Below are positions 1,205 through 50,206 of a stretch of DNA of 64,000 bases, piece by piece. A program made the translations under genes and the position numbers. The DNA lies in assembly GCA_947184155.2 (NCBI GenBank), contig CAMXCT020002005.1:55792-119791 (forward strand), in the 5' to 3' direction. Each line of letters begins with the position of its first letter. The first letter of the stretch is position 1. This DNA comes from Cladocopium goreaui. Lineage: Eukaryota > Sar > Dinophyceae > Suessiales > Symbiodiniaceae. The notes below the pieces were generated by a model. That model worked only from the letters and a program-made list of their open reading frames with translations, had not been told where the DNA came from and did no database searches.

Positions 1205-3310
1205 AAATCTATCTATCTATCTAATCTATCTAATCTATCTAATCTTATCTAATCTTATCTAATCTATCTAATCTATCTAATCTTATCTAATCTTATCTAA
1301 TCTATCTAATCTATCTAATCTTATCTAATCTTATCTAATCTATCTAATCTATCTAATCTTATCTAATCTATCTAATCTATCTAATCTTATCTAATCTATC
1401 TATCTATCTATCTATCTAATCTATCTAATCTTATCTAATCTTATCTAATCTATCTAATCTATCTAATCTTATCTAATCTATCTAATCTATCTAATCTTAT
1501 CTAATCTTATCTAATCTATCTAATCTATCTAATCTTATCTAATCTTATCTAATCTATCTAATCTATCTAATCTTCTAATCTTATCTAATCTATCTAATCT
1601 ATCTAATCTTATCTAATCTTATCTAATCTATCTAATCTATCTAATCTTATCTAATCTTATCTAATCTATCTAATCTATCTAATCTTATCTAATCTTATCT
1701 AATCTATCTAATCTATCTAATCTTATCTAATCTATCTAATCTATCTAATCTTATCTAATCTTATCTAATCTTATCTAATCTATCTAATCTATCTAATCTT
1801 ATCTAATCTTATCTAATCTATCTAATCTATCTAATCTTATCTAATCTATCTAATCTATCTAATCTATCTAATCTTATCTAATCTTATCTGTCTATCTAAC
1901 TATCTACCTATCCTATTTATCTTATCTTATCTTATCTTGTCTTATCTATCTATACTAATCCAATCTAATCTATCTAATTAATCTAATCTTATCTAATCTT
2001 ATCTAATCTTATCTAATCTTATCTAATCTTATCTCATCTGTCTAATCTTATCTAATCTTATCTGTCTATCTAGATATCTATCTACCTATCCTATTTATCT
2101 TATCTTATCTTATCTTGTCTTGTCTTGTCTTGTCTATCTAGACTAATCTAATCTATCTAATCTATCTAATTTATCTAATCTATCTAATCTATCTAATCTA
2201 TATAATCTATCTAATCTATCTAATCTTATCTAATATTATCTAATCGTATCTAATCTTATCTAGTCTTATCTAATCTTATCTAATCTTATCTGTCTATCTA
2301 GCTATCTATCTACCTATCCTATTTATCTCATCTTATCTTATCTTGTCTTATCTATCTAAACTAATCTAATCTATCTAATCTATCTAATCTATCTAATCTA
2401 TCTAATCTTACTCATATTATCTAATATTATCGAATCTTATCTAATCTTATCTAATCTTATCTAGTCTTATCTAATCTTATCTGTCTATCTAGCTAGCTAT
2501 CTACCTATCCTATTTATCTTATCTTATCTTATCTTATCTTGTCTTGTCTTGTCTTATCTATCTAATCTATCTAATCTATCTAATCTATCCAATCTATCTA
2601 ATTTATCTAATTTATCTAATCTATTTAATCTATCTGATCTATCTAATCTAATCTATCTAATCTATCTAATCTATCTAATCTATTTAATCTATCTAATCTA
2701 TCTAATCTATCTAATCTATCTAACCTATCTAACCTATCTAACCTATCTAATCTATCTAATCTATCTAATCTATCTAATCTATCTAATCTATCTACTCTAT
2801 CTACTCTATCTACTCTATCTAATCTTTCTAGTCTATCTAGTCTATCTAATCTGTCTAATCTATCTAATCTATCTAATCTATCTAATCTATCTTATTTTAT
2901 CTAATCTTATCTAATCTTATCTAATCTTATCTAATCTATCTAATCTATCTAATCTATCTAACCTGTCTAACCTATCTAATCTATCTAATCTATCTAATCT
3001 ATCTAATCTATCTAATCTATCTAATCTTTCTACTCTATCTACTCTATCTACTCTATCTACTTTTTCTAATCTATCTAGTCTATCTAATCTGTCTAATCTA
3101 TCTAATCTATCTAATCTATCTAATCTATCTTATTTTATCTAATCTTATCTAATCTTATCTAATCTAATCTTATCTAATCTTATCTAATCTTATCTAATCT
3201 TATCTAATCTTATCTAATCTTATCTAATCTTATCTGTCTATCTATCTATCTATCTACCTGTCCTAATTATCTTATCTTATCTAATCTAATCTAATCTATC
3301 TATTCTATGG

Positions 3311-3348
<38 letters not shown>

Positions 3349-3431
3349 ATGTCTATCTATTCTTATCTTATCTTATCTTATCTTTTCTATCTTATCTTAT
3401 CTTATCTTATCTTATTTATCTTATCTATCAG
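1205..3431. repeat. 2.2 kb TCTA/ATCT satellite block
   Basis: Long array of ATCTATCTA and ATCTTATCTA variants with higher-order alternation of TCTAATCTATC and TCTAATCTTATC. Homogeneous sub-blocks (1205-1880) give way to more varied ones (1880-3430) with recurring TGTCTATCTAGCTATC and CCTATTTATCTTATC segments. Open frames rich in Ile, Tyr and Leu inside it are repeat artefacts. Confidence 0.95.
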
Positions 3432-4065
3432 GAACATCGAAAAACAGAACGTCAACAACGAAGAGTCCCTCAAGAAACCTTAACGCAACCCTAAAGAAAC
3501 CCCAAAGCAACACTAAATAGAGCCTAAACCAACCCTCACGCAAACCCTGAAAAAACCCTACATAAACCCTAAACCAAATCTAAATAAACCCTACGACCCA
3601 AACCCTACAGAAACCCTAAACCAACCCTCAATCAAACCCTGACGAAACCCAAATTTCACCTGAAACCAAACCTAAATAAACCCCTAAACCAAGCCTAAAT
3701 AAATCCAAAACCAACACTAAGCAAACCCTAAAGAGACCCTAAAACAAACCTTGACGAAACCCGACATTAACCATTAACCCGAAGCTAACCTCAAATAAAA
3801 CCTAAACCAAGCCTGACTATACCCTACATAAAGCCGAAATAAACCCTAATCCAGCCTTCGCACAAACCCTGATGAAACCCTGATGAAACCCTAACTCAAG
3901 TTGAAACCAACCTTCTAAAGGCCTAAACCAGGCCTAAATAAACCGCAAACCAACGCTAAGTAGACTATAAATAGACCCTAAACCAAACCTTGACGAAACC
4001 CTACATTAGCCCTAAACCAACCCTAAATAAAACCTAAATCAAGCCTGAATATACCCTAAACCGTA
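3432..4065. repeat. degenerate telomere-like AAACCCTAAA block
   Basis: About 630 bp of irregular AAACCCTAAACC, CCCTAAATAAACC and CCCTAACC units, mixed with variants such as AACCCTGACG. The core CCCTAAA is the complement of the TTTAGGG telomere repeat of plants and dinoflagellates. The units are too degenerate and too internal to be an active chromosome end. Confidence 0.7.
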
Positions 4066-37045: not shown

Positions 37046-38150
37046 TCAAATCATCAAGCTCTGCATGTCTTCGACATAGAGCCTAAACCTGTCTCGACGT
37101 TCATCATCTCCTCTGTTACGGTGAAAACGATATAGCCTCTGGAATACGTTTCTGATCTCATTTGAAATTCTTGTACTGAATCCCTCTGTTAGAGTGGAAT
37201 CTAGCACCAGACAAATTGCCTGCTGAATCATGTTGGCCTCATGCCAGCGTTCTGCTGCAAGAGCTTGGTTCTGATCTGCCCTCATGTTCTGTAAGAGGGC
37301 TTCCATTCCAGTAGGTCTATTGGATTGGTTGTCCTCCACATCTGTTGTCGGACTTTCTTCTTCTCCTCCTTCGTGATCTTCTTGCTGATGTACAATTGGG
37401 TCAGTTGAATCTGCACGGTTTCTATGATTCCAAAGCACCAGGTTTCCTCTTTCTTGCGTTAGCATGTGTCGATACTGCTCGGCTGTCAGTTTAGCGTTCC
37501 TGACAAAACCACCTATCTCCATCAGTCCATACCTCACGCAATTTGAGGTTTCCTCCAGAGCATTGAAACCTTCTATAGTTTCCTGTTCAAAACCAGTCTG
37601 TCTAGCCATCACCGTGTCAATTCTGTTTGACGCATCTGTTGCCAAAGCGTTGCAATCTTCTATTCTTCCATTCAAATCAGCTGCATACTCATAGTGATCG
37701 GCTAACTGGATCTGGGCTTGCTCCAACTCGTTTGAAACTCCCAGCACTTGGTTCTCCAGTTTCTTGATTTTCTCTTCAATCCACTTCCATGCTCTGAATG
37801 CCAGCTTTGAAAACACAGTACCCATGCAAATCACCAAAACCGCAATTGCAAATGAAAACCATGATGTGTCCTTGGTCTCATTGTCCATGTTTGCGCAATC
37901 TGATTGCGCCATCGCCGCAACCGGTCCTGCTGACTCAAGACCCCCAGCAACTCCCATGGCAATACTCATGCGTAAAATGGCTTTGGAAATTCTTTTCAAT
38001 TGTTGGGAATTCAATCTCCTCTCATCTTGAATTGCATACTCATTTACTCCAACCCTTGAAAAGTCTGCAATGAAAACCAGTTCACATTCATATAACAAAT
38101 AGAACAACCTCTGTCTGCTCAAAGCTTTTGTCCCGATGTCTTCTCCTGTA
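37046..38150 (-). CDS. Copia RNase H tail with membrane and coiled-coil extension
   Basis: The frame starts in the RNase H tail (DIGTKALSRQRLFYLLYE, the end motif of Copia pol). It runs on for about 340 residues into a segment not usual in Copia pol: one strong membrane helix (FAIAVLVICMGTVF), then a predicted coiled coil (EKIKKLENQVLGVSNELEQ), an acidic linker (EDHEGGEEESPTTDVED) and a second helical region. TAG or TGA-bounded only at 37046. It could be a fused accessory or envelope-like domain, or a host-derived extension. Confidence 0.65.
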
Positions 38151-38862
38151 TCCATAACAGTTTTCCCGACAGATGCCTCACCTTACCTGACCCTTGCCTG
38201 CTTGCCAATTGCCTTGCTGAGCTTGAGTCGGTAAACTGAAAATGTTCCAAATGTTCATCCAAAACAAAAGCAGCACATGCCTTGATGAATATTCCATCGC
38301 AAACGCAGCTAACCAAACTATGAAGTTCACTTGAGCTAAGTGATACAACTCGTTGACTTCGGCTGATTGAATACATGAAGCATCCATTGATGAAGTGTAT
38401 CCCACATGATGTTGAGCGACGTGTCTGCTTGTTTGCACTCCAATCGGCATCGCTGAAGCTCTCAAGTACCCATCGGTGTTGTCCACTAGAAATCACCTTT
38501 CCTTGACCATCTTCAGGAAACGGCAGGTGCAAACCAATGTCCCCCACAGATTTCATGAAGCCTACCATCTTGCGTGGGCGTGCAAGTGAAGTCAAAGTGG
38601 GAGCACTCATGTATGACGCCAGCTCCTTTATGGTATACATCAAATATGGCCTTTCACGGCCTGCATACAGACATAGGTCCACAACTGAGCGGTATCCCTT
38701 GGAGTCTTTCTCTGAAAGTCTTTTAGAATTGTCAGACAACTGGATACTTGCATCGCATGGCACTTTCTGTGATCGTGCCGATCCAAGCATCCTCTGAAAC
38801 AAAGAAACCACTTTGTCCACAGTTGTACCCGAGGCTAAACCTAGGCCATCTCCAACCTCCAT
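38119..38862 (-). pseudogene. Copia RNase H, frameshifted
   Basis: Encodes SKGYRSVVDLCLYAGRERPY, ESFSDADWSANKQTRRSTS (RNase H catalytic Asp), VVSLSSSELHSLVS and SGKLLWIQEK. After LLWIQEK the sequence expected before DIGTK is missing and the frame changes, so a short deletion or frameshift joins this frame to the one at 37046-38150. Confidence 0.85.
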
Positions 38863-39610
38863 GATTTTCCTCCTCAGGAAGGTATGCTTGATTCTGGGCC
38901 TTTCAACTCATCATGACTCACTGAAAATCTCTCTTTCATCTTCTTCAGAAAAACGTTGTTCCAGAAGATTTCAATCCCACAAAAAGGATGTCATCGACAT
39001 GTATCATGATCGTGGCCTCAGGTGTTCTCGCCAAGCATGGTTGCTCCGGGCAAAACTCGAAATTCATGCTTTCCATCAAGAATGATTTCAAACACAAAAA
39101 CTACTGTTTTGCTTCAAGACGTTGGCCTGGGAGATTTCTCTTTATGATAAAAGGCTGTCCCTGCAAAACCACACGCACCGGATCATCTTGTTCAACCTGC
39201 AGAAAGGCATCACGCACATCCAAGCTTCCCATAACAACATCGTAATCCTCCTTGCATGCTGTCTCACAAATCTTGCTTTTCATTCCAAGATATTTCAACT
39301 GCAGAAGGTTTGCTGTATGGGTTTCAGTGGCAGGACTGAATGTGTCCAATCTTTTCGTTGTTGCAAATTCACGCGCCACCAGTCTGGATCTGCGCATCCA
39401 TCTTTTCCTTTTACCTTCACCTTCTCCATAAGACTTCAAACGCCAATCCCTGACCATCTTTGTAGGCAAAGAACCTGTGATTTCGCCTTGGAACTCGGAT
39501 TGTGGCACCAAGACTTGCATGCTGCACAAACGGTCAATCTCCACCTTATCTGCAAGGTCATCAATCCAATTTTCTCTGCCAGGCGCGGGTTGATCTGTGT
39601 CTGACCACAA
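38863..39610 (-). pseudogene. Copia reverse transcriptase, interrupted
   Basis: 39101-39610 has RSRLVAREFA, DTFSPATETHTANLLQLKYL and SLDVRDAFLQVEQDDP, the N-terminal half of a Copia RT. The catalytic motif HVDDILFVG is found near 38990-39010 in another frame, and the expected middle region is short. A decayed member of the same class as the element at 26797-29646, but a different subfamily. Confidence 0.85.
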
Positions 39611-39933
39611 ATACTAGGGAGGTCCACTGGAGCGAAGCCACTTTGCAGCTCAGTTTGCGGTCCCAGAAATAGGACCGGCTAAAACAAGTTTGTTTGCAAA
39701 AAGATCGTGCGGCAGTCTTGTAGTTCACGGGGCGCTGATGCATGTCCACACGCATGTCGTTTAGAGTTCGTCAGGTGGACAGTTGAGTAGGTGAAGCCAG
39801 GCAGGTAGGTAGTCATCGCATTCAGCCTGGCATCACCCAGTGATCCATGCCCCCCATGCCAGTTCACCTTGAGTGGGCATCCTATCCTTGGGAATCTGTG
39901 TTGGGGTGATTTTGGGGACGACTGTAGTCTGTT
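39611..39933. other. unassigned spacer
   Basis: Between the Copia relic and the small three-exon gene. A further minus-strand frame here has no motif. Nothing else recognised. Confidence 0.35.
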
Positions 39934-40331
39934 ATGTGTGAGGCCGTGCTGTGTGAACAGCTCCAAGATTTGAAGCACAAGCATGAAGCTGCGAAGAAAG
40001 CAGCCCGCGAAGCCAAGAAGATGGAAAAGAATGCCCTCCGCAAACGGACCCGTCTAATCAAGGTGCCTCTCTGCCTCTGCGTGAGTGCTGGGCGGACTTT
40101 CACGTGCAGGACGCTGTGTGTCCTCATGTTCATGAATGGCAGGCTGCCAAAGGGTTGTCAAAGGCAGATCTGCAACTCCTAGATGCAAAGAGCAAGGAAG
40201 TTGAGGAGGCCGGGTGGCCTTCTTTTGATTGTGTAAGATCATTCCCAGCGTCTCCCCCATTTTCGTTTTCATGCTTTCGCTTTCCATCCAAGGCAAAGGA
40301 AGTGGAGGGGCCGGCCTCCGAGGCTAAGTGA
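39934..40331 (+). CDS. small basic helical protein, three exons
   Basis: Exon 1 39934-40062 starts at ATG (MCEAVLCEQLQDLKHKHE) and is strongly Lys/Arg/Ala/Glu-rich (AAREAKKMEKNALRKRTR), ending AAG before GT. Exon 2 40143-40208 (AAKGLSKADLQLLDAKSKEV) follows an AG acceptor and ends GAG before a GC donor. Exon 3 40293-40331 (AKEVEGPASEAK, TGA) follows AAG. Phase is 0 throughout, giving 77 aa. All helix-forming, probably a coiled coil or nucleic-acid binder. No family recognised. It is the nearest coding unit 5' of the Rep region and shares its strand. Confidence 0.6.
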
Positions 40332-40730
40332 GAGCAACTGTATGTGTGTAAAGAGCATTTTTCGACCTTCCTCCATTTTTCGAGCTGGCAAGCAGACGCA
40401 TGGAGCCGAAGTTTTGCCCATTGTAACTCGAGGCCAATCTGCTGGGAAAAAGAGCTGTCATTTTGCAGCTTCTTTGTAAGATGAGCAATGTCGCTCACAG
40501 TTTCGGAAAGAAATTGCTCTAGTGACTTAATCTCTACAATGCTGCAAATTTTGTCACTGTTTCTGGACGGTGTGTAATGTACAGCGACTACTTGTAGTTT
40601 TGTTGCTCAAAACATACGCGTGGTTTTGCGTGTGGCCATGTTCACGCAGAAGCGCGGGAATTTGTGTGCAGCACATAAGCAACCAGAAACATTTGCACTC
40701 GTTGGGTAGTGAATCGTTGGGTGTAGGCGC
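40332..40730. other. unassigned spacer
   Basis: No motif-bearing frame. Possible 3' UTR of the gene ending at 40331. Confidence 0.35.
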
Positions 40731-41333
40731 GCTCCCTACAAGGGGATATGCAGGTGGTAGGTGTGACTTGGAATTGTCATAGGTGGAGGTTTGTGGGTCG
40801 TAGGTGCGCTCCCTATACAAGGAGATTTCCAGGTCGCAGGTGTGACCTGGAAGGGTCGTAGGTGGAGGTTTCAGGGTCGTAGGCGGCCTTGCAGGGTTGC
40901 AGGTGGGGTGTACCTTACACACCGTGGTGGTGGTACACCTTAAACACTGGTGTGGTTCACCTTAAACACCGGGTGGTGGTACACCTTAAACACTGGTGTG
41001 GTTCACCTTAAACACCGTGGTGGTGGTACACCTTAAACACTGGTGTGGTTCACCTTAAACACCGGGGGTGTGGTACACCTTAAACACCGGTGTGGTTCAC
41101 CTTAAAACACCAGGGGTGTGGTACACCTTAAACACCGGTGTGGTTCACCTTAAACACCAGGGGTGTGGTACACCTTAAACACCGGTGTGGTTCACCTTAA
41201 ACACCATGGTGGTGGTACACCTTAAACACCGGTGTGGTTCACCTTAAACACCAGGGGTGTGGTACACCTTAAACACCGGTGTGGTTCACCTTAAACACCA
41301 GGGGTGTGGTACACGTTAAACACCGGTGTGAAC
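40730..41333. repeat. GTAGGTG-type repeats, then 46-bp minisatellite with CACCTTAAACACC
   Basis: 40730-40905 holds two copies of a GCGCTCCCTA...AAGG...GTGTGACTTGGA unit. 40905-41333 is a regular array of alternating GGTGTGGTTCACCTTAAACACC and GGTGTGGTACACCTTAAACACC half-units (about 23 bp each). Every half-unit has a small GGTG...CACC inverted repeat. Confidence 0.9.
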
Positions 41334-41642
41334 GGGTTGGCTTTCAAAAACCATTGGTGGGTGGGTGGGAAGAGTTCCGTATGCACCGTTTCACCCGTGC
41401 GTCGGCACACTAACGGGTTAATAACGGCATGGAGCCGTACTTCCTTGGAATAGTTGCAGGACGTACGGATACGTTACGCTTGCGCTGGGAGTTCTAGACT
41501 CCAACTATCTTCGGCGTGTAACTCGTTGCTTGTGCGGTGACCGACTTTATGTACCTCCAAGCATTGTCGCGTTGCGTGCGTTCGCGCCCTTTGCAAACCA
41601 AACATCTCCAAACAAGTTGGGTTTCGTTATTCTTTTGCTTTG

Positions 41643-42002
41643 ATGTCATGTCAAGCGTTTTGTAGCTTCAGTGTGACTTTTGCTGCTTTGTGTTTTCATA
41701 CTGTTGGTGTAACAATGCAACAACGTTTCATTCCATTGCCTCGCGGTGGGTCTGAGTTCCTTGTACCTTCAAAGAAGATAGGTTGTGATTTGAACAAGCT
41801 CAGTTCTGTTTTGCAAGCCTTTCACAACCAGACTTGGCAATTGTGGGGTTGTGCAGTAGCCGTTTGTACCACCATGACGTGTATTTGGGTTTGCAGTTGT
41901 TTATTGCTTTTTTGGGTTGCCGATGTCGTGACCTGTTCTTGTCAATGTAGCACCTGTTCTTGTCAATGTAGCACCTGTTCTTGTCAATGTGAGTGCTCTT
42001 AG
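41643..42002 (+). CDS. possible Cys-rich membrane ORF
   Basis: ATG at 41643 opens 119 codons. There is an N-terminal hydrophobic stretch, a central segment with RFIPLPRGGSEFLVPSKK, a membrane-type helix (TCIWVCSCLLLFWVADVV) and a tail of three near-identical 21-nt repeats that encode CSCQCST units. No homologue recognised. Position 5' of the origin-like module suggests it may be part of the Rep element, but the terminal repeats could equally be chance minisatellite. Confidence 0.35.
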   Translation: MSCQAFCSFSVTFAALCFHTVGVTMQQRFIPLPRGGSEFLVPSKKIGCDLNKLSSVLQAFHNQTWQLWGCAVAVCTTMTCIWVCSCLLLFWVADVVTCSCQCSTCSCQCSTCSCQCECS

Positions 42003-42367
42003 TGGCTGCAGCCGTTTCTCTAGTCACCACAGCACAAGTGACCATTTGTTGTTGGAGTGCGCCGTGCGGACCCCAAAGCAGCTAGTCACATGTGAGAGAG
42101 ACCATGAGACTGGATGGACTAGGACAGCTCGGATTTGTCAGACAGTAGGTTGCATTATAGGAGCCATTCGTGTCAGGAACGATCGTTGTTGCCCCACATT
42201 GCAAGTAGTTTCGCAGAGCTAAAGCTAGGACACACGATTGTAGCCAATTTTTTCCCCATGGTTCCGGTGTCGCCAAGGTCGCACTTCTTCTGGAACTTCC
42301 AGGCAAGAATGGGCGTGCTGCGTGCTGATAGTCGGGCTTGAGTCTTTTGTCTGTACCCCTTTCCCCC

Positions 42368-42604
42368 CTAGACTCCTAACGTTTGTGAACTCTGAAGCAT
42401 GTACACCGACAATTCCGTACATCCCCCTAATCAATAATAGTACTAATTTAAAACGGGATGGAGTAGGCAATTAGACTGCAGAAAGCGTCTGGAAATCTCA
42501 ATTTTCTTGTTCGTCTTACTCCGACCTGTTGCCTGAAATGTCTTTCTGCCTATAGGATCTAGGGGCATCACTTTGCCGGGAGTAGCGGAGTAGGCGGAGT
42601 AGCA
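42368..42604 (+). promoter_or_regulatory. origin-like module upstream of the Rep gene
   Basis: Elements in order: CTAGACTCCTAAC (42368-42380); apex TAGTACTAA (42438-42446), followed by AAAACGGGATGGAGTAGG; inverted iteron CTTACTCCG (42515-42523); three GGAGTAG iterons at 42579, 42587 and 42596. The nonamer resembles the TAGTATTAC/TAATATTAC nick site of CRESS-DNA viruses. The left stem arm is eroded here compared with the array copies. Order and spacing match the modules in the tandem array. Confidence 0.7.
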
Positions 42605-42714
42605 GCTGGACATCATGGTTTTTGTGCTGTTTTTTTGCCACATCCAAAGGCTGTTGCCGCCATTTTTGTTGTTCGAGGGTGACTTGACGTGGCAACTCCT
42701 GTTTGTGCAAAGTC

Positions 42715-44115
42715 ATGGGGTGCTCGGCAGTGCTTGTGGCCAAACGAGCTCTTGTAGCTCTATTGCATGCCTTGGCTCCGCTCTACAACGTGCAGTCGAG
42801 TTGCACACGGGATTCCAGCGATGATGACATTGTGAAAGTGTTCCGGAAGCTTGTGTTGAAGACTCATCCAGATCGTGGCGGAGATGTGCGGCACCAACAG
42901 CAATTGAATGAAGCTAGAGCCTCTTGGGAGCTTGCGAAGAAAAAAGCTCGTGATGGCTCTGCTGCCAGCAGAAGTGCGGAGCATCCTTTGTCAATGGTTC
43001 CAGCTCCTGCGCAGCGCAATGAGTATCGGGTACGAGGCACATCAGTCTTTCTTACTTACAATGGGTTTGCTGATCCGGCCCAATGGCTTGCCTTGAATGT
43101 CTTTGTCCTCAATCACCTCCAGCCTTGGAAAGTGCGCCATTGGTGCACGACATTGGAGACTTGTGCGTCAGGCAAATTCCATGCCCATGTCATGCTCCAG
43201 TTCAAGTCCGAAGTTGATAGAACCGTTTCTGCTTTTGTTTTCGAAAGGCTTAAACCAAATGTCTCGCCAACGGACTTGTGTGGCGATGGTTTGTGCAGGA
43301 AGAAACTGCAGATGAGCATAGACCGTGGAATTTTCTATGTCTGGGCAAACAAAATTGGCACGGCTCGCCTGTCTTGTGGCGGACTCTGTGTGGCCGGAAA
43401 CTATGCCCCTGTCTGGACAGACGAGCTGTTTCGTTACCAGGTCTTGGGCGCATGGCCTGAGAAGCTTTGGAAGCAACGGAAAGTCACAACGGAGGTGTAC
43501 AAGGAGTACTTGTACTTGACTAGGGATGGCGTACCAGCCCGAAAACGCAACTTAGACGCTGTCGTGCAAGAAGAAGAAAAGCAAGAGCTTCAGGCCCTCA
43601 TTGCCAGCAACACGAAGAGAATCAGATCCAATCCTGAACTCTACAAAACGTTTCCGGAAATTGCAGAGGTGACCGCTTGGCTGAAGCTTTTCGAGATGGA
43701 TGCCTTGCGGTATCCTGTTTTGTTGCTCCTGGGTGCCTCTATGTCTGGCAAGACCGAATATGCCAACTCCTTGTTTCGAAGCCCGTTGGAACTCAAGGTT
43801 GGTCCCCTCCTGCATTTCCCTGACGGTTTGCGTGAATTCAATCGGAAGATCCACGATGGCATCATTTTAGACGATGTCCGAGATTTGAGCTTTTTGACGG
43901 AGAACCAGGACAAGATTCAAGGCAAATACAATGTACAGCTGGAGTTTGGTGTCACGCCTGGTGGCCAATGTAAATATGAGAAATATCTGTTCCGAATTCC
44001 AATTGTAGCGACATTGAATTACTCCACGCAAAATTTGTCATTGCTGGACACGCATGATTGGCTTTCCAAGGCTGGCAATCGTGTTGTGGTGCATTTCCGT
44101 GCTTTTGTTGCTTAA
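42715..44115 (+). CDS. J-domain-Rep fusion: CRESS-type HUH endonuclease plus SF3 helicase
   Basis: An intact, intronless frame of 466 aa from the first ATG (42715). Residue numbers here count from that Met. J-domain: helix KVFRKLVLK followed by HPDRGGD (HPD 51-53), then QLNEARASWELAKK. HUH endonuclease: motif I FLTYNG (112-117), motif II HAHVMLQF (156-163) with both metal-binding His, motif III FYVWANK (207-213), where Tyr208 and Lys213 have an unusual Y-x4-K spacing. SF3 helicase: Walker A GASMSGKT (340-347), Walker B GIILDDV (382-388), motif C IPIVATLN (428-435) and a possible Arg finger near 456. Expected role: nick a hairpin origin and unwind DNA for rolling-circle replication; the J-domain would recruit Hsp70. 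All three domains look active. The origin module ends 110 bp upstream. Confidence 0.9.
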   Translation: MGCSAVLVAKRALVALLHALAPLYNVQSSCTRDSSDDDIVKVFRKLVLKTHPDRGGDVRHQQQLNEARASWELAKKKARDGSAASRSAEHPLSMVPAPAQRNEYRVRGTSVFLTYNGFADPAQWLALNVFVLNHLQPWKVRHWCTTLETCASGKFHAHVMLQFKSEVDRTVSAFVFERLKPNVSPTDLCGDGLCRKKLQMSIDRGIFYVWANKIGTARLSCGGLCVAGNYAPVWTDELFRYQVLGAWPEKLWKQRKVTTEVYKEYLYLTRDGVPARKRNLDAVVQEEEKQELQALIASNTKRIRSNPELYKTFPEIAEVTAWLKLFEMDALRYPVLLLLGASMSGKTEYANSLFRSPLELKVGPLLHFPDGLREFNRKIHDGIILDDVRDLSFLTENQDKIQGKYNVQLEFGVTPGGQCKYEKYLFRIPIVATLNYSTQNLSLLDTHDWLSKAGNRVVVHFRAFVA

Positions 44116-44574
44116 TTAGGAACAGGTTGTTTGTCCTCCGAGCGAAAACGTTTGGATTGCTAATGTGTCTCTCTGAAATTCGCTTGCAAGCTGCATGTTA
44201 AGATTACCCAGTCCAGCGTGGTTGAGAAAACAGCAGCCTGAAGCCACTGCTCAGGGAACCGCGGAAAGTGTTTTTGCTGCAGGCGTTTGCACGGGCGGGT
44301 GCCATTGGGTTTGTTGTTTCAGGGCCAAACATGTTATCAGCGATTCTGTTCGCATGGAAGAAGTCTGGGGTTTGTGATACGCTGCTTTGTTGTGGCGTGC
44401 TTGCAGGTGATGCCGCCCAAAGCAAAGGCAAAGGCAGCTGGCAAGCAGAATGCGCTGCAGGCTGAGGGCTGGTGTTGCTCTGGTGGTTCTGGGTCTAATG
44501 TGGGAGGTCCTGTTTTTGGTACCGTTTGCTGCTCCTTGGATTGGCTTCGGAGTTTTGGGCCTCCCCTGTATCTC
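44116..44574. other. spacer 3' of Rep
   Basis: No long gene. Holds a candidate short exon (44410-44460). The sequence between has acceptor-like TTTGCTGCAGG and TTGCAGG tracts. It may be the 3' part of the Rep element. Confidence 0.35.
44410..44460 (+). CDS. possible short lysine-rich first exon
   Basis: ATG at 44410, right after a TTGCAGG acceptor-like sequence, encodes MPPKAKAKAAGKQNALQ and stops at CAG before a GC donor. A basic N-terminus directly 3' of a Rep gene is where CRESS elements often carry a capsid gene, but no downstream exon was found. Weak. Confidence 0.25.
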
Positions 44575-45309
44575 TGAACCGAACTCCAGAGATGCTTGCA
44601 TAGACCACGTTACTAAATCTCCGATGTAGGTTGACCACCCAAGATTTCGAGCTCTCTGTTGCTCCATTTTGCTGTCAGGTGTTGGTGGATTACCTATCCA
44701 TTTTTCTGAGCGTGCAAAAACGTCTAACGTGCCATCCCCATTGGTTCCTACGTGCATTGGATTGTATCCATTTGGGAACATACCATCCCTTTGACCAAAC
44801 AACTCAGGCACACCCCTCACTTGGTTCACTTGCTCTCCTAATGCCTGTCTCAACCTCAGCACCTGCATAGGGTCCAAACCTTGCGTCATCCTAAGGATTT
44901 CCTGCATTCGTTCATTCTGTGGTGTCACACCGCCAACATTCGGTCCTTGACAACCTGTCAGTCCTTGTCGTTCCAGTCCTACCTGACCTCGACCTTGACT
45001 CAAGTTCTGTCCTTGACCTGAAACACATGGCATTCCTTGACCACAGCCTTGACCTGAACATGCAGTTCCTAAACATGCACCTTGCTGAACTCCACAGCCT
45101 GTGCAACCTTGAAATCCTTGACATCCTTGTTGAAAACCGTGGCATGCACCCTGCTGAACTCCACAGCCCGTGCATCCACTAAAACCTTGACATGCACCTT
45201 GTTGAAACCCACAACCTGTGCAACCTGTCACACCTTGGAAACTTTGTCCATTCAAACTCACATTTCTTGGGCTACTTTGGCCATACATTCCGTAGTTTCT
45301 TGGATCCAT
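44575..45309 (-). pseudogene. Gag-like ORF of a dinoflagellate Copia element
   Basis: ATG at 45307-45309 (MDPRNYGMYGQ) follows a TTTCAG acceptor. Then come four to five CTGCG(V/F)QQGAC repeats, a Gln/Gly-rich stretch, a helical segment (RMQEILRMTQGLDPMQVLRL) and a C-terminal block RARNLGWSTYIGDLVTWSMQ followed by ASLEFGSEI. That last block has the Trp/helix pattern I associate with Gag of dinoflagellate Copia elements (from memory). The frame stays open to 44251 with altered composition, probably non-coding. It lies antisense between the Rep gene and the array. Confidence 0.5.
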
Positions 45310-45875
45310 GAGACCTCCTTGTCTCCTTTCAGGACCGTACCCGGCAGTCATCGGCAGCATTGACGGCCAGCAACTAAGGTCCCGGCACCAACTAAGTTCC
45401 CAGCTGTCGTGCCTAGAATTCCTACTCCTGCCCTGCATTTACATTACCGGTTGGCGAAGTCGCTTCAGCACCATTCGCTTGACCTGCTTCTAGCCTAGTC
45501 GGCGAACCTGGTGGCATCGGCATTCCTAATCCTGGTGGTTGCATCTCAGCTCCTGAATTACCTCCTCCCTGGATCATCTTACTCGTGTCCTACGCGTGAG
45601 CCGAAGCTCCGCTACCATGCGAAAATTCAGGCTTACAACCACTAGCCGCGACGCTCGCGAACGCCAATCCTACGCGTTGGGGTCCGAGCCTAAGCGGCGA
45701 TGCCGATGAATAAACTTGCAAACACACGCAAGTCAAAAACCCACAAATTCTCACTTGACCTCGCTCTCACCTTTTTCTCGCAACACACGAAAAGACAGGT
45801 AAAGTGTCTTAGGCTGTCTGCTAACCTCTGTGCCGTGTTGTCCTTGCCTCTTTTATTCTGTCGTGCAACATGCTT
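45310..45875. other. spacer before the tandem array
   Basis: No motif-bearing frame. The minus-strand Gag-like frame stays open upstream to ATG at 45436-45438. Nothing else recognised. Confidence 0.35.
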
Positions 45876-46685
45876 GTCTGGGTGGTGCTGCAGCGCAAAT
45901 CGCCACATTGGACCTAGGGAACGGAGACAGCTGATACCGCTTTCAGGTTCCATTTCTGGGGCCGGAAAGTCAATTGAAATAAGACTTCGCATGTGCGGGC
46001 CTCCTCTGTTCCAAATCTATATGCTGGTTGCTTAAATTAAACCCAGTTGTAATTTTTTGTTTGTTGCAAGGGTCGGCCTTTGCTGTGGATTTTGCGATTT
46101 TGCGGTCTCATTTTTGGTACCGCCAGACGGTCCCAAAAATGGGACCGTGAAAGTGCTTTTCTTTTGTTCTTTTACTAAGCTGTGCATGCGGTCCCAAAAT
46201 GGGACCGCCAGGCGGTCCCATTTTTGGGACCGTGTTTAGGTTCATTTTTTGAAGTTTTTTGTATCAGGGTTGCAGAAGCGCAACGTTTTGGTTTCAATGA
46301 AACTTTGTGGCTTATGGCGACCGGAAGGGCAACTAGGGAGGCCCTTTTGAGCGAAGCCGGTTTTGAGAAGGTTTTCCGGACCCAGAATTGGGTCCGTCGG
46401 AGGAAGCTGTTTTGTAGATGATTTTGTTTCTTGTTGGAGCAAGCGGGGTGCATATCGGTTGCTGCTTGAACCCACTTGAAGTTAGCTTCTTATGATTTCG
46501 TTGCGTCTGGTGGCTTGATTGTTTGCCGCTACAAGAAGGCCCATCAGCCTTTTGCAACCCTTAGGTGATTGCTTGAGGTGTTTCTTGCTGTTGCGGAGTT
46601 TGTGGGTTTTCGCGCAGGTGGCCGGCTTCCATTTGAATGATTGTATTGAATACTGTACTGCCCCTTGTTGGCCCCCCTTGCCCCT

Positions 46686-46926
46686 CTAGACTCCTACCGA
46701 AGTTTTCCGCCGAGAAAGAACATGAATCATGATCTTTTCAGTCAATCCCGTTATTAATTAATAGTATTAATTTATAACGGGATGGAGTAGGAATCTGCTT
46801 AGGAAAAGATGTGGGAAGATGAAATATTGAAGGCTTTCTTACTCCGCCATCGTTTCGATATCGTGTCAATTACATTGGGTAATTGAATGAAAACACAGCA
46901 CGGAGTAGCGGAGTAGCGGGAGTAGC
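46686..46926 (+). promoter_or_regulatory. origin-like module, array unit 1
   Basis: CTAGACTCCTACC at 46686; a 35-nt palindrome at 46747-46781 (17-bp arms with one mismatch around a central G) whose apex carries TAGTATTAA (46762-46770); GATGGAGTAGG directly after it; CTTACTCCG at 46838-46846; GGAGTAG at 46902, 46910 and 46919. The spacing of apex to iterons (140 nt) and of inverted iteron to iterons (64 nt) equals that at the Rep gene. Confidence 0.75.
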
Positions 46927-47759
46927 GAAGGATTGGTGAATGTTGCCTGGGTGGTGCTGCAGCGCAAATCGCCACATTGGAGCTAGGGAACGGAGACAGC
47001 TGATACCACATGTGCGCTTTCAGGTTCCATTTCTGGGGCCGGAAAGTCAATTGAAATAAGGCTTCGCATGTGCGGGCCTCCTCTGTTCCAAATCTATATG
47101 CTGGTTGCTTAAATTAAACCCAGTTATAATTTTTTGTTTGTTGCAAGGGTCGGCCTTTGCTGTAGATTTTGCGATTTTGCGGTCTCATTTTTGGTGCCGC
47201 CAGATGGTCCCAAAAATGGGACCGTGAAAGTGCTTTTCTTTTGTTCTTTTACTAAGCTGTGCATGCGGTCCCAAAAATGGAACCGCCTGGTCCCATTTTT
47301 GGGACCGTGTTTAGGTTCATTTTTTGAAGTTTTTTGTATCAGGGTTGCAGAAGCGCAACGTTTTGGTTTCAATGAAACTTTGTGGCTTATAGCGACCGGA
47401 AGGGCAACTAGGGAGGCCCTTTTGAGCGAAGCCGGTTTTGAGAAGGTTTTCCGGACCCAGAATTGGGTCCGTCGGAGCAAGCTGTGTTTTGTAGATGATT
47501 TTGTTTCTTGTTGGAGCAAGCGGGGTGCATATCGGTTGCTGCTTGAACCCGCTTGAAGTTAGCTTCTTATGATTTCGTTGCGTCTGGTGGCTTGATTGTT
47601 TGCCGCTACAAGAAGGCCCATCAGCCTTTTGCAGCCCTTAGGTGATTGCTTGAGGTGTTTCTTGCTGTTGAGGAGTTTGTGGGTTTTCGCGCAGGTGGCC
47701 GGCTTCCATTTGAATGATTGTATTGAATACTGTACTGCCCCTTGTTGGCCCCCCTTGCC

Positions 47760-48003
47760 CCTCTAGACTCCTACCGAAGTTTTCCGCCGAGAAAGAACAT
47801 GAATCATGATCTTTTCAGTCAATCCCGTTATTAATTAATAGTATTAATTTAAAACGGGATGGAGTAGGAATCTGCTTAGGAAAAGATGTGGGAAGGTGAA
47901 GTATTGAAGGCTTTCTTACTCCGCCATCGTTTCGATATCGTGTCAATTACATTGGGTAATTGAATGAAAACACAGCACGGAGTAGCGGAGTAGCGGGAGT
48001 AGC
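47760..48003 (+). promoter_or_regulatory. origin-like module, array unit 2
   Basis: Apex TAGTATTAA at 47839-47847 in a hairpin with 15 of 17 arm bases paired. CTTACTCCG at 47915-47923. GGAGTAG at 47979, 47987 and 47996. Spacing identical to unit 1. Confidence 0.75.
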
Positions 48004-48814
48004 GAAGGATTGGTGAATGTTGCCTGGGTGGTGCTGCAGCGCAAATCGCTACATTGGAGCTAGGGAACGGAGACAGCTGATACCACATGTGCGCTTTCAG
48101 GTTCCATTTCTGGGGCCGGAAAGTCAATTGAAATAAGGCTTCGCATGTGCGGGCCTCCTCTGTTCCAAATCTATATGCTGGTTGCTTAAATTAAACCCAG
48201 TTGTAATTTTTTGTTTGTTGCAAGGGTCGGCCTTTGCTATGGATTTTGCGATTTTGCGGTCTCATTTTTGGTACCGCCAGACGGTCCCAAAATGGGACCG
48301 TGAAAGTGCTTTTCTTTTGTTCTTTTACTAAGCTGTGCATGCAGTCCCATTTTTGGGACCGTGTTTAGGTTCATTTTTTGAAGTTTTTTGTATCAGGGTT
48401 GCAGAAGCGCAACGTTTTGGTTTCAATGAAACTTTGTGGCTTATGGCGACCGGAAGGGCAACTAGGGAGGCCCTTTTGAGCGAAGCCGGTTTTGAGAAGG
48501 TTTTCCGGACCCAGAATTGGGTCCGTCGGAGCAAGCTGTTTTGTAGATGATTTTGTTTCTTGTTGGAGCAAGCGGGGTGCATATCGGTTGCTGCTTTAAC
48601 CCACTTGAAGTTAGCTTTTTATGATTTCGTTGCGTCTGGTGGCTTGATTGTTTGCCGCTACAAGAAGGCCCATCAGCCTTTTGCAGCCCTTAGGTGATTG
48701 CTTGAGGTGTTTCTTGCTGTTGCGGAGTTTGTGGGTTTTCGCGCAGGTGGCCGGCTTCCATTTGAATGATTGTATTGAATACTGTACTGCCCCTTGTTGG
48801 CCCCCCTTGCCCCT

Positions 48815-49060
48815 CTAGACTCCTACCGAAGTTGTCGCCGAGAAAGAACATTGAATCATTATCTTTCAGTCCAAATCCCGTATTATTATCAGTATAATTT
48901 TTTAAAACGGGATGGAGTAGGAATTCTGCTTAGGAAAAGATGGCTGGGAAGGTGAAGTATGAAGGGCTTTCTTACTCCGCCATCGTTCGAGATCGTTGTC
49001 AATTACATGGTAACTGAATGAAAAAATACCACGGAGTCGCGGAGTAGCGCGGAGCAGCGA
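48815..49060 (+). promoter_or_regulatory. degraded origin-like module, array unit 3
   Basis: The apex is changed to TCAGTATAAT near 48889-48898, and the iterons read GGAGTCG, GGAGTAG and GGAGCAG (49033-49057). Many indels lie around it. This unit appears to have lost function. Confidence 0.6.
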
Positions 49061-49804
49061 CGGGTTGGTGAATGTTGCCTGGGTGGTGCTGCATTGCAAT
49101 CGCCGCATTGGAGCTGGGGAACGGAGACAGCTGATACCACATGTGCGCTTTCAGGTTCCATTTCTGGGGCCGGAAAGTCAATTGAAATAAGGCTTCGCAT
49201 GTGCGGGCCTCCTCTGTTCCAAATCTACATGCTGGTTGCTTAAATTAAACCCAGTTGTAATTTTTTGTTTGTTGCAAGGGTCGGCCTTTGCTGTGGATTT
49301 TGCGATTTTGCGGTCTCATTTTTGGTACCGCCAGACGGTCCCAAAAATGGGACCGTGAAAGTGCTTTTCTTTTGTTCTTTTACTAAGCAGTGCATGCGGT
49401 CCCAAAAATGGGACCACCGTGTTTAAGTTCATTTTTTGAAGTTTTTTGTATCAAGGTTGCAGAAGCGCATCGTTTTGGTTTCAATGAAGCTTTGTGGCTT
49501 ATGGCGGCCGGAAGGGCAACTAGGGAGGCCCTTTTGAGCGAAGCCGGTTTTGAGAATGTTTTCCGGACCCAGAATTGGGCCCGTCGGAGGAAGCTGTTTT
49601 GTAGATGATTTTGTTTCTTGTTGGAGCAAGCGGGGTGCATATCGGTTGCTGCTTGAACCCAGTTGAAGGTAGCTTTATATTATTTCGTTTCGTCTGGTGG
49701 CTTGATTGTTTGCTGCTAAAAGAAGGCGCATCAGCCTTTTGCAGCCTTATAGGTGATTGCTAGTTTGTGGGTTTTCGCGCAGGTGGCCGGCTTCCATTTG
49801 AATG

Positions 49805-50048
49805 ATTGTATTGCCTACCGAAGTTTTCAGCCCAGAAAGAACATGAATTATGATCTTTTCAGTCAACCCCGTTATTAATTAATAGTATTAATTTAAAACG
49901 GGATGGAGTAAGAATCTGCTTAGGGAAAGATGTGGGAAGGTGAAGTATTGAAGGCTCTCTTACTCCGCCATCGTTTCGATATCGTGTCAATTACATTGGG
50001 TAATTGAATGAAAACACAGCACGGAGTAGCGGAGTAGCGGGAGTAGCG
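49805..50048 (+). promoter_or_regulatory. origin-like module, array unit 4
   Basis: Apex TAGTATTAA at 49883-49891. CTTACTCCG at 49959-49967. GGAGTAG at 50023, 50031 and 50040. The CTAGACTCC motif present in the other units is deleted here, while the palindrome and iteron spacing are kept. Confidence 0.75.
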
Positions 50049-50206
50049 AAGGATTGGTGAATGTTGCCTGGGTGGTGCTGCAGCGCAAATCGCTACATTG
50101 GAGCTAGGGAACGGAGACAGCTGATACCACATGTGCGCTTTCAGGTTCCATTTCTGGGGCCGGAAAGTCAATTGAAATAAGGCTTCGCATGTGCGGGCCT
50201 CCTCTG

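Follow-up and report, generated by a model that had tools for sequence, protein, structure and literature searches.

A stretch of 64,000 nucleotides from the genome of the dinoflagellate Cladocopium goreaui (GenBank assembly GCA_947184155.2, contig CAMXCT020002005.1, forward-strand positions 55792-119791; 'the window', to which all coordinates below refer) poses the question of why a tandem array without genes should carry the same set of origin-like motifs as a nearby gene for a replication initiator (Rep) protein. These motifs, a hairpin with a TA-rich apex and a series of GGAGTAG iterons, resemble those at the origins of circular Rep-encoding single-stranded (CRESS) DNA viruses. The answer that appears probable is that the shared module is a Rep-type origin, kept by selection in two transposon-like elements that are mobilised by a DDE transposase and amplified by rolling-circle replication, one of them a gene-less satellite. 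On this view the gene-less repeats would depend on the replication gene.

A module shared by the Rep gene and the array

The module at the Rep gene (42368..42602, forward strand) comprises CTAGACTCCTA at 42368, the apex TAGTACTAA at 42438, within a weak hairpin at about 42420-42460, GATGGAGTAGG at 42457, iterons at 42460, the inverted iteron CTTACTCCG at 42515 and direct copies of GGAGTAG at 42579, 42587 and 42596. In unit 1 of the array (46686..46925, forward strand), CTAGACTCCTA at 46686 is followed by the apex TAGTATTAA at 46762, within a strong hairpin at 46745-46783, then by GATGGAGTAGG at 46781, the inverted iteron at 46838 and the GGAGTAG triplet at 46902, 46910 and 46919. The remaining units hold CTAGACTCCTA at 47763 and 48815, TAGTATTAA at 47839 and 49883, GATGGAGTAGG at 47858 and 48911 (position 49902 reads GATGGAGTAAG), inverted iterons at 47915, 48971 and 49959, and triplets at 47979/47987/47996 and 50023/50031/50040. 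The window has 24 copies of GGAGTAG, where shuffled sequence has 4.3 on average.

Each element was found where the original prediction, made from the sequence of the window alone, had placed it, and in the order given there. The distances it reported were also recovered: 141 nt from apex to iterons at Rep and 140 nt in units 1, 2 and 4, with 64 nt from the inverted iteron to the direct iterons in all four modules. The spacing from CTAGACTCCTA to the apex is not conserved, being 70 nt at Rep and 76 nt in the array. As the array units are tandem copies, Rep and the units in the window together provide one independent comparison, not the four that the agreement of their spacings might seem to offer. 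The origin regions of units 2, 3 and 4 are 98.8, 85.5 and 95.8% identical to that of unit 1. In unit 3 the inverted iteron lies 62 nt from the iterons, which are damaged to GGAGTCG and GGAGCAG; its origin (48815-49070), with small indels in addition to these mutations, is diverged beyond the rest of the unit, which may reflect either decay or a poorly polished assembly.

The claim that motif and spacing have been preserved, rather than a sequence merely copied, was borne out by alignment of Rep with unit 1. Their motif elements are identical at 71 of 75 positions, against 20 of 55 in the equal-length 55-nt spacer between the inverted iteron and the iterons. The gapped alignment score of this spacer was reached by 163 of 500 shuffles, that of the 46-47-nt spacer after the hairpin by 53 and that of the 90 bases past the iterons by 116. 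Past the hairpin, therefore, motif and spacing are kept and the intervening sequence is not. On the other side of the apex, likeness exceeds that of shuffles: 17 of 500 were as good for the stretch from CTAGACTCCTA to the hairpin, 15 for the 100 bases upstream, and one for the left hairpin arm (10 of 15 positions identical). With its C, the window's Rep apex, TAGTACTAA, is a variant: of 25 Rep-type modules whose right half is exact, 23 have TAGTATTAA, as the array does (its own two exact modules were tallied apart from these 25). All 25 share one poorly matching left hairpin arm, which makes the Rep hairpin weak. In the array the hairpins are strong (-12.7, -9.9 and -8.2, with 0 of 300 shuffles as good for each).

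Occurrence of the module in the genome

The 1.17-Gb genome was searched with patterns demanding exact iterons, so that decayed modules fall outside the counts; spacings were broken down for the first 100 places listed per pattern. The pattern CTTACTCCG-N(40-70)-GGAGTAGCGGAGTAG was found at 1,091 places, and its reversed control at none. The inverted iteron and iterons are 64 nt apart in 94 of the 100 listed (otherwise 58, twice, and 61, 63, 66 and 72 nt). Similarly, TAGTAYTAA-N(117-147)-iterons occurs at 581 places, against a control of zero, with spacings of 140 (54 places), 141 (23), 139 (15), 138 (3), 142 (2) and 128, 136 and 153 nt (one each); 92 of the 100 thus lie at 139-141 nt. Beside matches to Rep family A, that of the window's Rep, the distance is 141 nt in 16 of 16 listed. 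Many modules are near-copies, so these counts demonstrate abundance and tightness rather than independent events.

Among the 100 listed iteron modules are 30 no more than 1.2 kb from a family A Rep match (from 90 scored among 741 candidates), 32 at the approximately 1.08-kb spacing of gene-less arrays, and 38 others, 20 of the latter falling in 151-bp series of the kind seen in Rep elements. The original prediction had counted a lack of linkage to Rep genes against itself, and such modules exist in part: those at gene-less-array spacing stand alongside those near Rep. Modules far from Rep genes are the pattern that a satellite would be predicted to leave. The iteron block upstream of Rep is itself often repeated at 151 bp without a hairpin, keeping the 64-nt distance in 58 of 59 blocks (L003-L020, L021-L038).

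Two elements with related inverted ends

The Rep module and the array module are each enclosed in an element, and the inverted ends of the two kinds of element are related, a feature that the earlier description of the window had overlooked. The Rep element (39614..44568, forward strand; 4,955 bp; hereafter E, of family A) has imperfectly inverted ends, CTAGGGAGG(C/T)CC... and ...GGGCCTCCCCTG, flanked on both sides by TA (39612-39613 and 44569-44570). Its terminal inverted repeats are CTAGGGAGGCCCACTGGAGCGAAGCC, at the left end (39614..39639, forward strand), and CAGGGGAGGCCCAAAACTCCGAAGCC, the reverse complement of the right end (44543..44568, reverse strand). A 47-bp tandem repeat occupies 40912..41330 on the forward strand. 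Between 39613 and 44570, and no further, the segment aligns with a 7.26-kb tandem unit (98.5-99.7%). The ends recur at many sites as (TA)CTAGGGAGGCCC on the left and GGGCCTCCCCTG(TA) on the right, and among the distinct outer flanks of Rep elements TA adjoins 12 of 13 on the left and 13 of 14 on the right, with CA in the two exceptions. Duplicate flanks (C5982/C1026; two places on C5934; C203/C3463) were tallied once, and the left-end sample excludes 4 of 14 fetched pieces without a recognisable end as well as L018, which runs into a truncated S segment; in L014, CTT replaces the terminal CTG.

In the fetched arrays, a 2.17-kb segment (S) bearing a DDE_1 open reading frame (ORF; 1.6e-9, 73 homologs) separates one Rep element from the next, so that a Rep gene, a transposase and terminal inverted repeats are present together in the 7.26-kb tandem unit; the window matches this unit without the DDE_1 ORF. 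Arrays elsewhere start at a left end and finish at a right end (33 of 860 candidates scored). Where E is missing between S segments, the junction reads GCAA-CTG-TAGCGACTTC in 3 of 3 cases, two of them from one array and hence not all independent. Such a CTG footprint is what excision of a Tc1/mariner element would leave. The genome has 663 exact copies of the left-end motif, whatever their flank, against none for the control, and 51 of the 71 listed left ends up to C483:52969 have a module inside on the same strand. Left ends about 1.3 kb apart on C613, and 0.8 kb apart on C341, where no exact iteron module lies within 3.6 kb, suggest that further gene-less families may exist.

The array in the window mirrors this plan, alternating gene-less elements of about 0.75 kb with spacers of about 0.3 kb, all on the forward strand. 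It comprises element 1, truncated to its right part (45879..46008, left limit approximate); spacer S1, with GGTCCC palindromes (46009..46332); element 2 (46333..47085; 753 bp), holding origin unit 1 (46686-46925); spacer S2 (47086..47407); element 3 (47408..48162; 755 bp), holding unit 2 (47763-48002); spacer S3 (48163..48461); element 4 (48462..49216; 755 bp), holding the damaged unit 3 (48815-49057); spacer S4 (49217..49519); and element 5 (49520..50206; 687 bp), holding unit 4 (49883-50046, CTAGACTCCTA missing), at whose right end the array finishes. The element ends, CTAGGGAGGCCC and GGGCCTCCTCTG, are related to those of the Rep element, and the spacers, 299-324 bp long, terminate in GCAA as the DDE segment does. 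GGTCCC/GGGACC palindromes are found in the spacers (46100-46240 and others) and also within the DDE gene, in a gap that resembles an intron (L024, at about 7.9-8.04 kb).

The minus-strand ORFs flanking the Rep element (37046-39610 and 44571-45438) have no supported Pfam match, and give the impression of belonging to a copia-like retroelement that the Rep element has split. Pfam searches of other window ORFs, four (two overlapping) and others, produced no match; one minus-strand ORF had only weak matches, under the curated cut-offs. Rfam gave none on the window at gathering score. A 2.2-kb AATCT-type microsatellite adjoins degenerate telomere-like AACCCTAAA repeats (1206-3427 and 3487-4060).

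The Rep protein and its families

The Rep gene (42715..44115, forward strand; ATG at 42715, with TTG at 42703 in the ORF list) encodes a J domain, an HUH endonuclease and an SF3 helicase. It is present in high copy number and mostly intact, 89 of 91 genomic matches being without a stop, and named homologs occur in Polarella, Symbiodinium, Karenia and Durusdinium. Among 38 aligned homologs, T118, H160 and H162 of rolling-circle replication motifs I and II are invariant and L117 and Y119 nearly so; in the helicase, G344, G349-K350-T351, L389-D390-D391 and N439 are invariant. Since both HxH and the tyrosine are present, nuclease activity is expected. In fold searches the nuclease part matches HUH Reps, and matches to the helicase include those of large T, E1 and B19V NS1, tied with other AAA+ proteins, which make up most of the listed matches. 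The J domain is matched by sequence at weak E-values. Of the proteins P0103 and P0003, a Symbiodinium necroappetens gene model joins Rep to a Tc1-type transposase match, and a Polarella protein, as read from its alignment, has two Rep copies in tandem, one incomplete and the other fuller.

Two further Rep families in the same genome have a similar upstream plan with other iterons and other spacing. The family B Rep (P0009) is 99% identical to three genomic matches and 64% identical to the window's Rep; upstream of it, in two near-identical pieces, are CTAGACTCCTA, a hairpin with AATAATAGTATATATTTAAAACCGGATG, inverted GACTCCG and direct CGGAGTC. Family C (query P0029; 29 matches of equal score) has, in the single upstream piece read, a diverged CCCCGTAGACTCTTA, a CCCGA...TTCGGG hairpin and GCGGAGGA iterons. 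Iterons are as a rule tied to their Rep, and different iterons at a similar place in other families are what Rep-specific recognition would predict. The array carries the iteron of family A, and nearly its spacing; as the iteron changes with the Rep family, a link through the iteron between the array and Rep family A is supported.

Origin and spread of the elements

We infer from this anatomy, and from known families, how the two kinds of element could be maintained. The autonomous kind, of about 5 kb, would carry the J-domain HUH-SF3 Rep and lie in tandem with the 2.17-kb DDE_1 segment; the satellite, of about 0.75 kb plus a 0.3-kb spacer, would have kept the cis-acting parts alone, namely ends, origin and spacer. 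The family A Rep would bind GGAGTAG iterons and nick the apex of any copy, autonomous or gene-less. A circular E+S unit would be copied by rolling circle into head-to-tail multimers, after which the DDE transposase would move pieces bounded by the outermost E ends into TA sites, gene-less E+S units being copied and moved in trans. The fullest form of this proposal, a hybrid mobile DNA with two engines (DDE cut-and-paste at TA and rolling-circle copying of circular E+S by a J-domain, large-T-like Rep with nuclease motifs) whose trans-copied gene-less satellites are tracked by family-specific iterons, is put forward tentatively.

Several observations weigh against this interpretation. In the family A Rep hairpin the outer stem is 6 bp long and the inner one short (-2.5 kcal/mol; 74 of 500 shuffles as good), and the hairpin of family C is modest (29 of 300). 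Of the parts that make up a CRESS-type design, iterons and apex are present at both loci, with a stem that is strong in the array and weak at Rep. In family B the apex is 148 nt from the direct iteron, against 141 in family A, and inverted and direct iterons, measured on ACTCCG and GGAG, are 75 rather than 61 nt apart, so that the exact spacing is specific to family A and its satellite. In family C one direct iteron precedes the hairpin and inverted ones follow it, an orientation unlike that of A. The original inference that one Rep protein recognises both loci is supported in part, an origin-like module being common to an intact HUH-helicase Rep and the array, with motif and spacing kept within family A. 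Y212 and K217 of motif III, although invariant in the 38 homologs, are five apart (FYVxAxK), the usual form being YxxK. The DDE_1 ORF sits in S, between Rep elements and outside their inverted ends; the left junction within arrays is GCAA rather than TA; and 20 of the 71 listed left ends are without an exact iteron module within 3.6 kb. The window array has TG at its right flank and a truncated left end, so the case for TA insertion concerns the Rep elements only. Tandem arrays can, moreover, also arise by unequal crossing-over.

In a rival account, unlikely on balance, Rep and the module are passengers of elements spread by DDE cut-and-paste only, arrays form by unequal crossing-over, and the module is, for example, a Rep-repressed promoter or a transposase binding site. 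Inverted ends, TA flanks and CTG footprints indeed require no Rep, and both the ends without an exact module and the weak Rep hairpin fit; yet the gene-less elements, with no Rep to regulate, keep the apex, the spaced iterons and a hairpin stronger than that of the Rep copy, while the catalytic motifs of Rep are invariant and nearly all its copies free of stops. Common descent of the two elements is likely in any case, given that ends, module and palindromes are common to both, and the stretches before the hairpin are somewhat alike. That the array unit is simply a deletion derivative of the Rep element, its likeness mere leftover ancestry, is nonetheless improbable because of the shuffle comparison of Rep with unit 1: the spacing has been retained where the sequence has not.

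The Rep fold and iterons would also suit CRESS-type viruses whose genomes, along with satellites, had recently integrated as endogenous viral elements. This is very improbable in view of the precise inverted ends with TA, and no capsid family was found among the ORFs scanned with Pfam, which include some of those of the 7.26-kb unit. In IMG/VR the Rep protein gave no pattern match, and of 214 stretches matching the pattern of its profile none was confirmed by tblastn; the phage collection held no match to the Rep protein at 1e-5. It is barely credible that Rep is itself a Helitron- or Replitron-like transposase: it has the HUH endonuclease fold, but the elements end precisely, in inverted repeats flanked by TA, and the apex is internal rather than terminal.

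Relation to known systems

Replitrons and Helitrons share with the algal element an HUH endonuclease in a eukaryotic setting; they are described as lacking terminal inverted repeats, Replitrons having 5-11 bp direct repeats (PMC10741241), whereas the algal ends are precisely inverted. The order of J domain, origin-binding domain and SF3 helicase recalls polyomavirus large T, through the weak J-domain E-values and the helicase fold match. The origin-binding domain of large T has an HUH-like fold, and the algal Rep differs in having HxH and the tyrosine. This order bears on the relation of large-T-like initiators to Rep.

The origins of geminiviruses and other CRESS-DNA viruses follow iteron and nonamer rules, and the algal system is like them in its HUH and SF3 Rep, GGAG-type iterons and TA-rich nonamer near Rep. 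It is unlike them in being chromosomal, with an N-terminal J domain, the FYVxAxK motif, a weak Rep hairpin and no capsid match among the ORFs scanned. CRESS satellites and the common regions of multipartite genomes are gene-poor DNAs that have iterons and a stem-loop in common with a helper Rep; the algal gene-less units differ as chromosomal arrays with transposon-like ends. If our interpretation is correct, this eukaryote would host helper and satellite replicons side by side in its chromosome, with many intact Rep copies, and the specificity of Rep for its origin would be readable from sequence.

Tc1/mariner-pogo transposons and their Miniature Inverted-repeat Transposable Elements have a TA target, short inverted ends with CAG/CTG, a 3-bp CTG footprint and short gene-less derivatives. 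The algal elements resemble them in TA flanks, short CAG/CTG inverted ends, a nearby DDE_1 transposase, a 3-bp CTG footprint and gene-less derivatives, and depart from them in the initiator and origin inside, the transposase outside the ends and the alternating E/S tandem arrays. Our interpretation would also offer a way in which tandem repeats could arise in genomes of the dinoflagellate type. Neither J-domain Reps nor Rep-bearing TA elements in dinoflagellates were found in the titles and starts of abstracts of open-licence PMC literature, and the same search found no origin in a gene-less satellite, Rep-family-dependent iterons or alternating arrays.

The nearest precedent is the geminivirus-like transposon of the truffle Tuber melanosporum, in which, according to Liu et al. 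(2011), a high-copy Rep-like gene is accompanied by transposase ORFs and a microsatellite as well as terminal inverted repeats (PMC3198968). As these are already joined there, the kind of element is known. Searched for terms, the main text of that paper yielded no mention of a stem-loop, an iteron, a nonanucleotide or a J domain; its single hairpin belongs to another element (PMC3198968). The likeness lies in composition, since both systems combine a high-copy Rep-like gene with a transposase, a microsatellite and terminal inverted repeats in a eukaryotic genome. The truffle Rep is interrupted, and its element has 37-bp terminal inverted repeats without an obvious target site duplication (PMC3198968); the algal system, by comparison with that account, has an intact Rep with a J domain, TA sites, a transposase between the elements and a gene-less satellite that keeps the origin.

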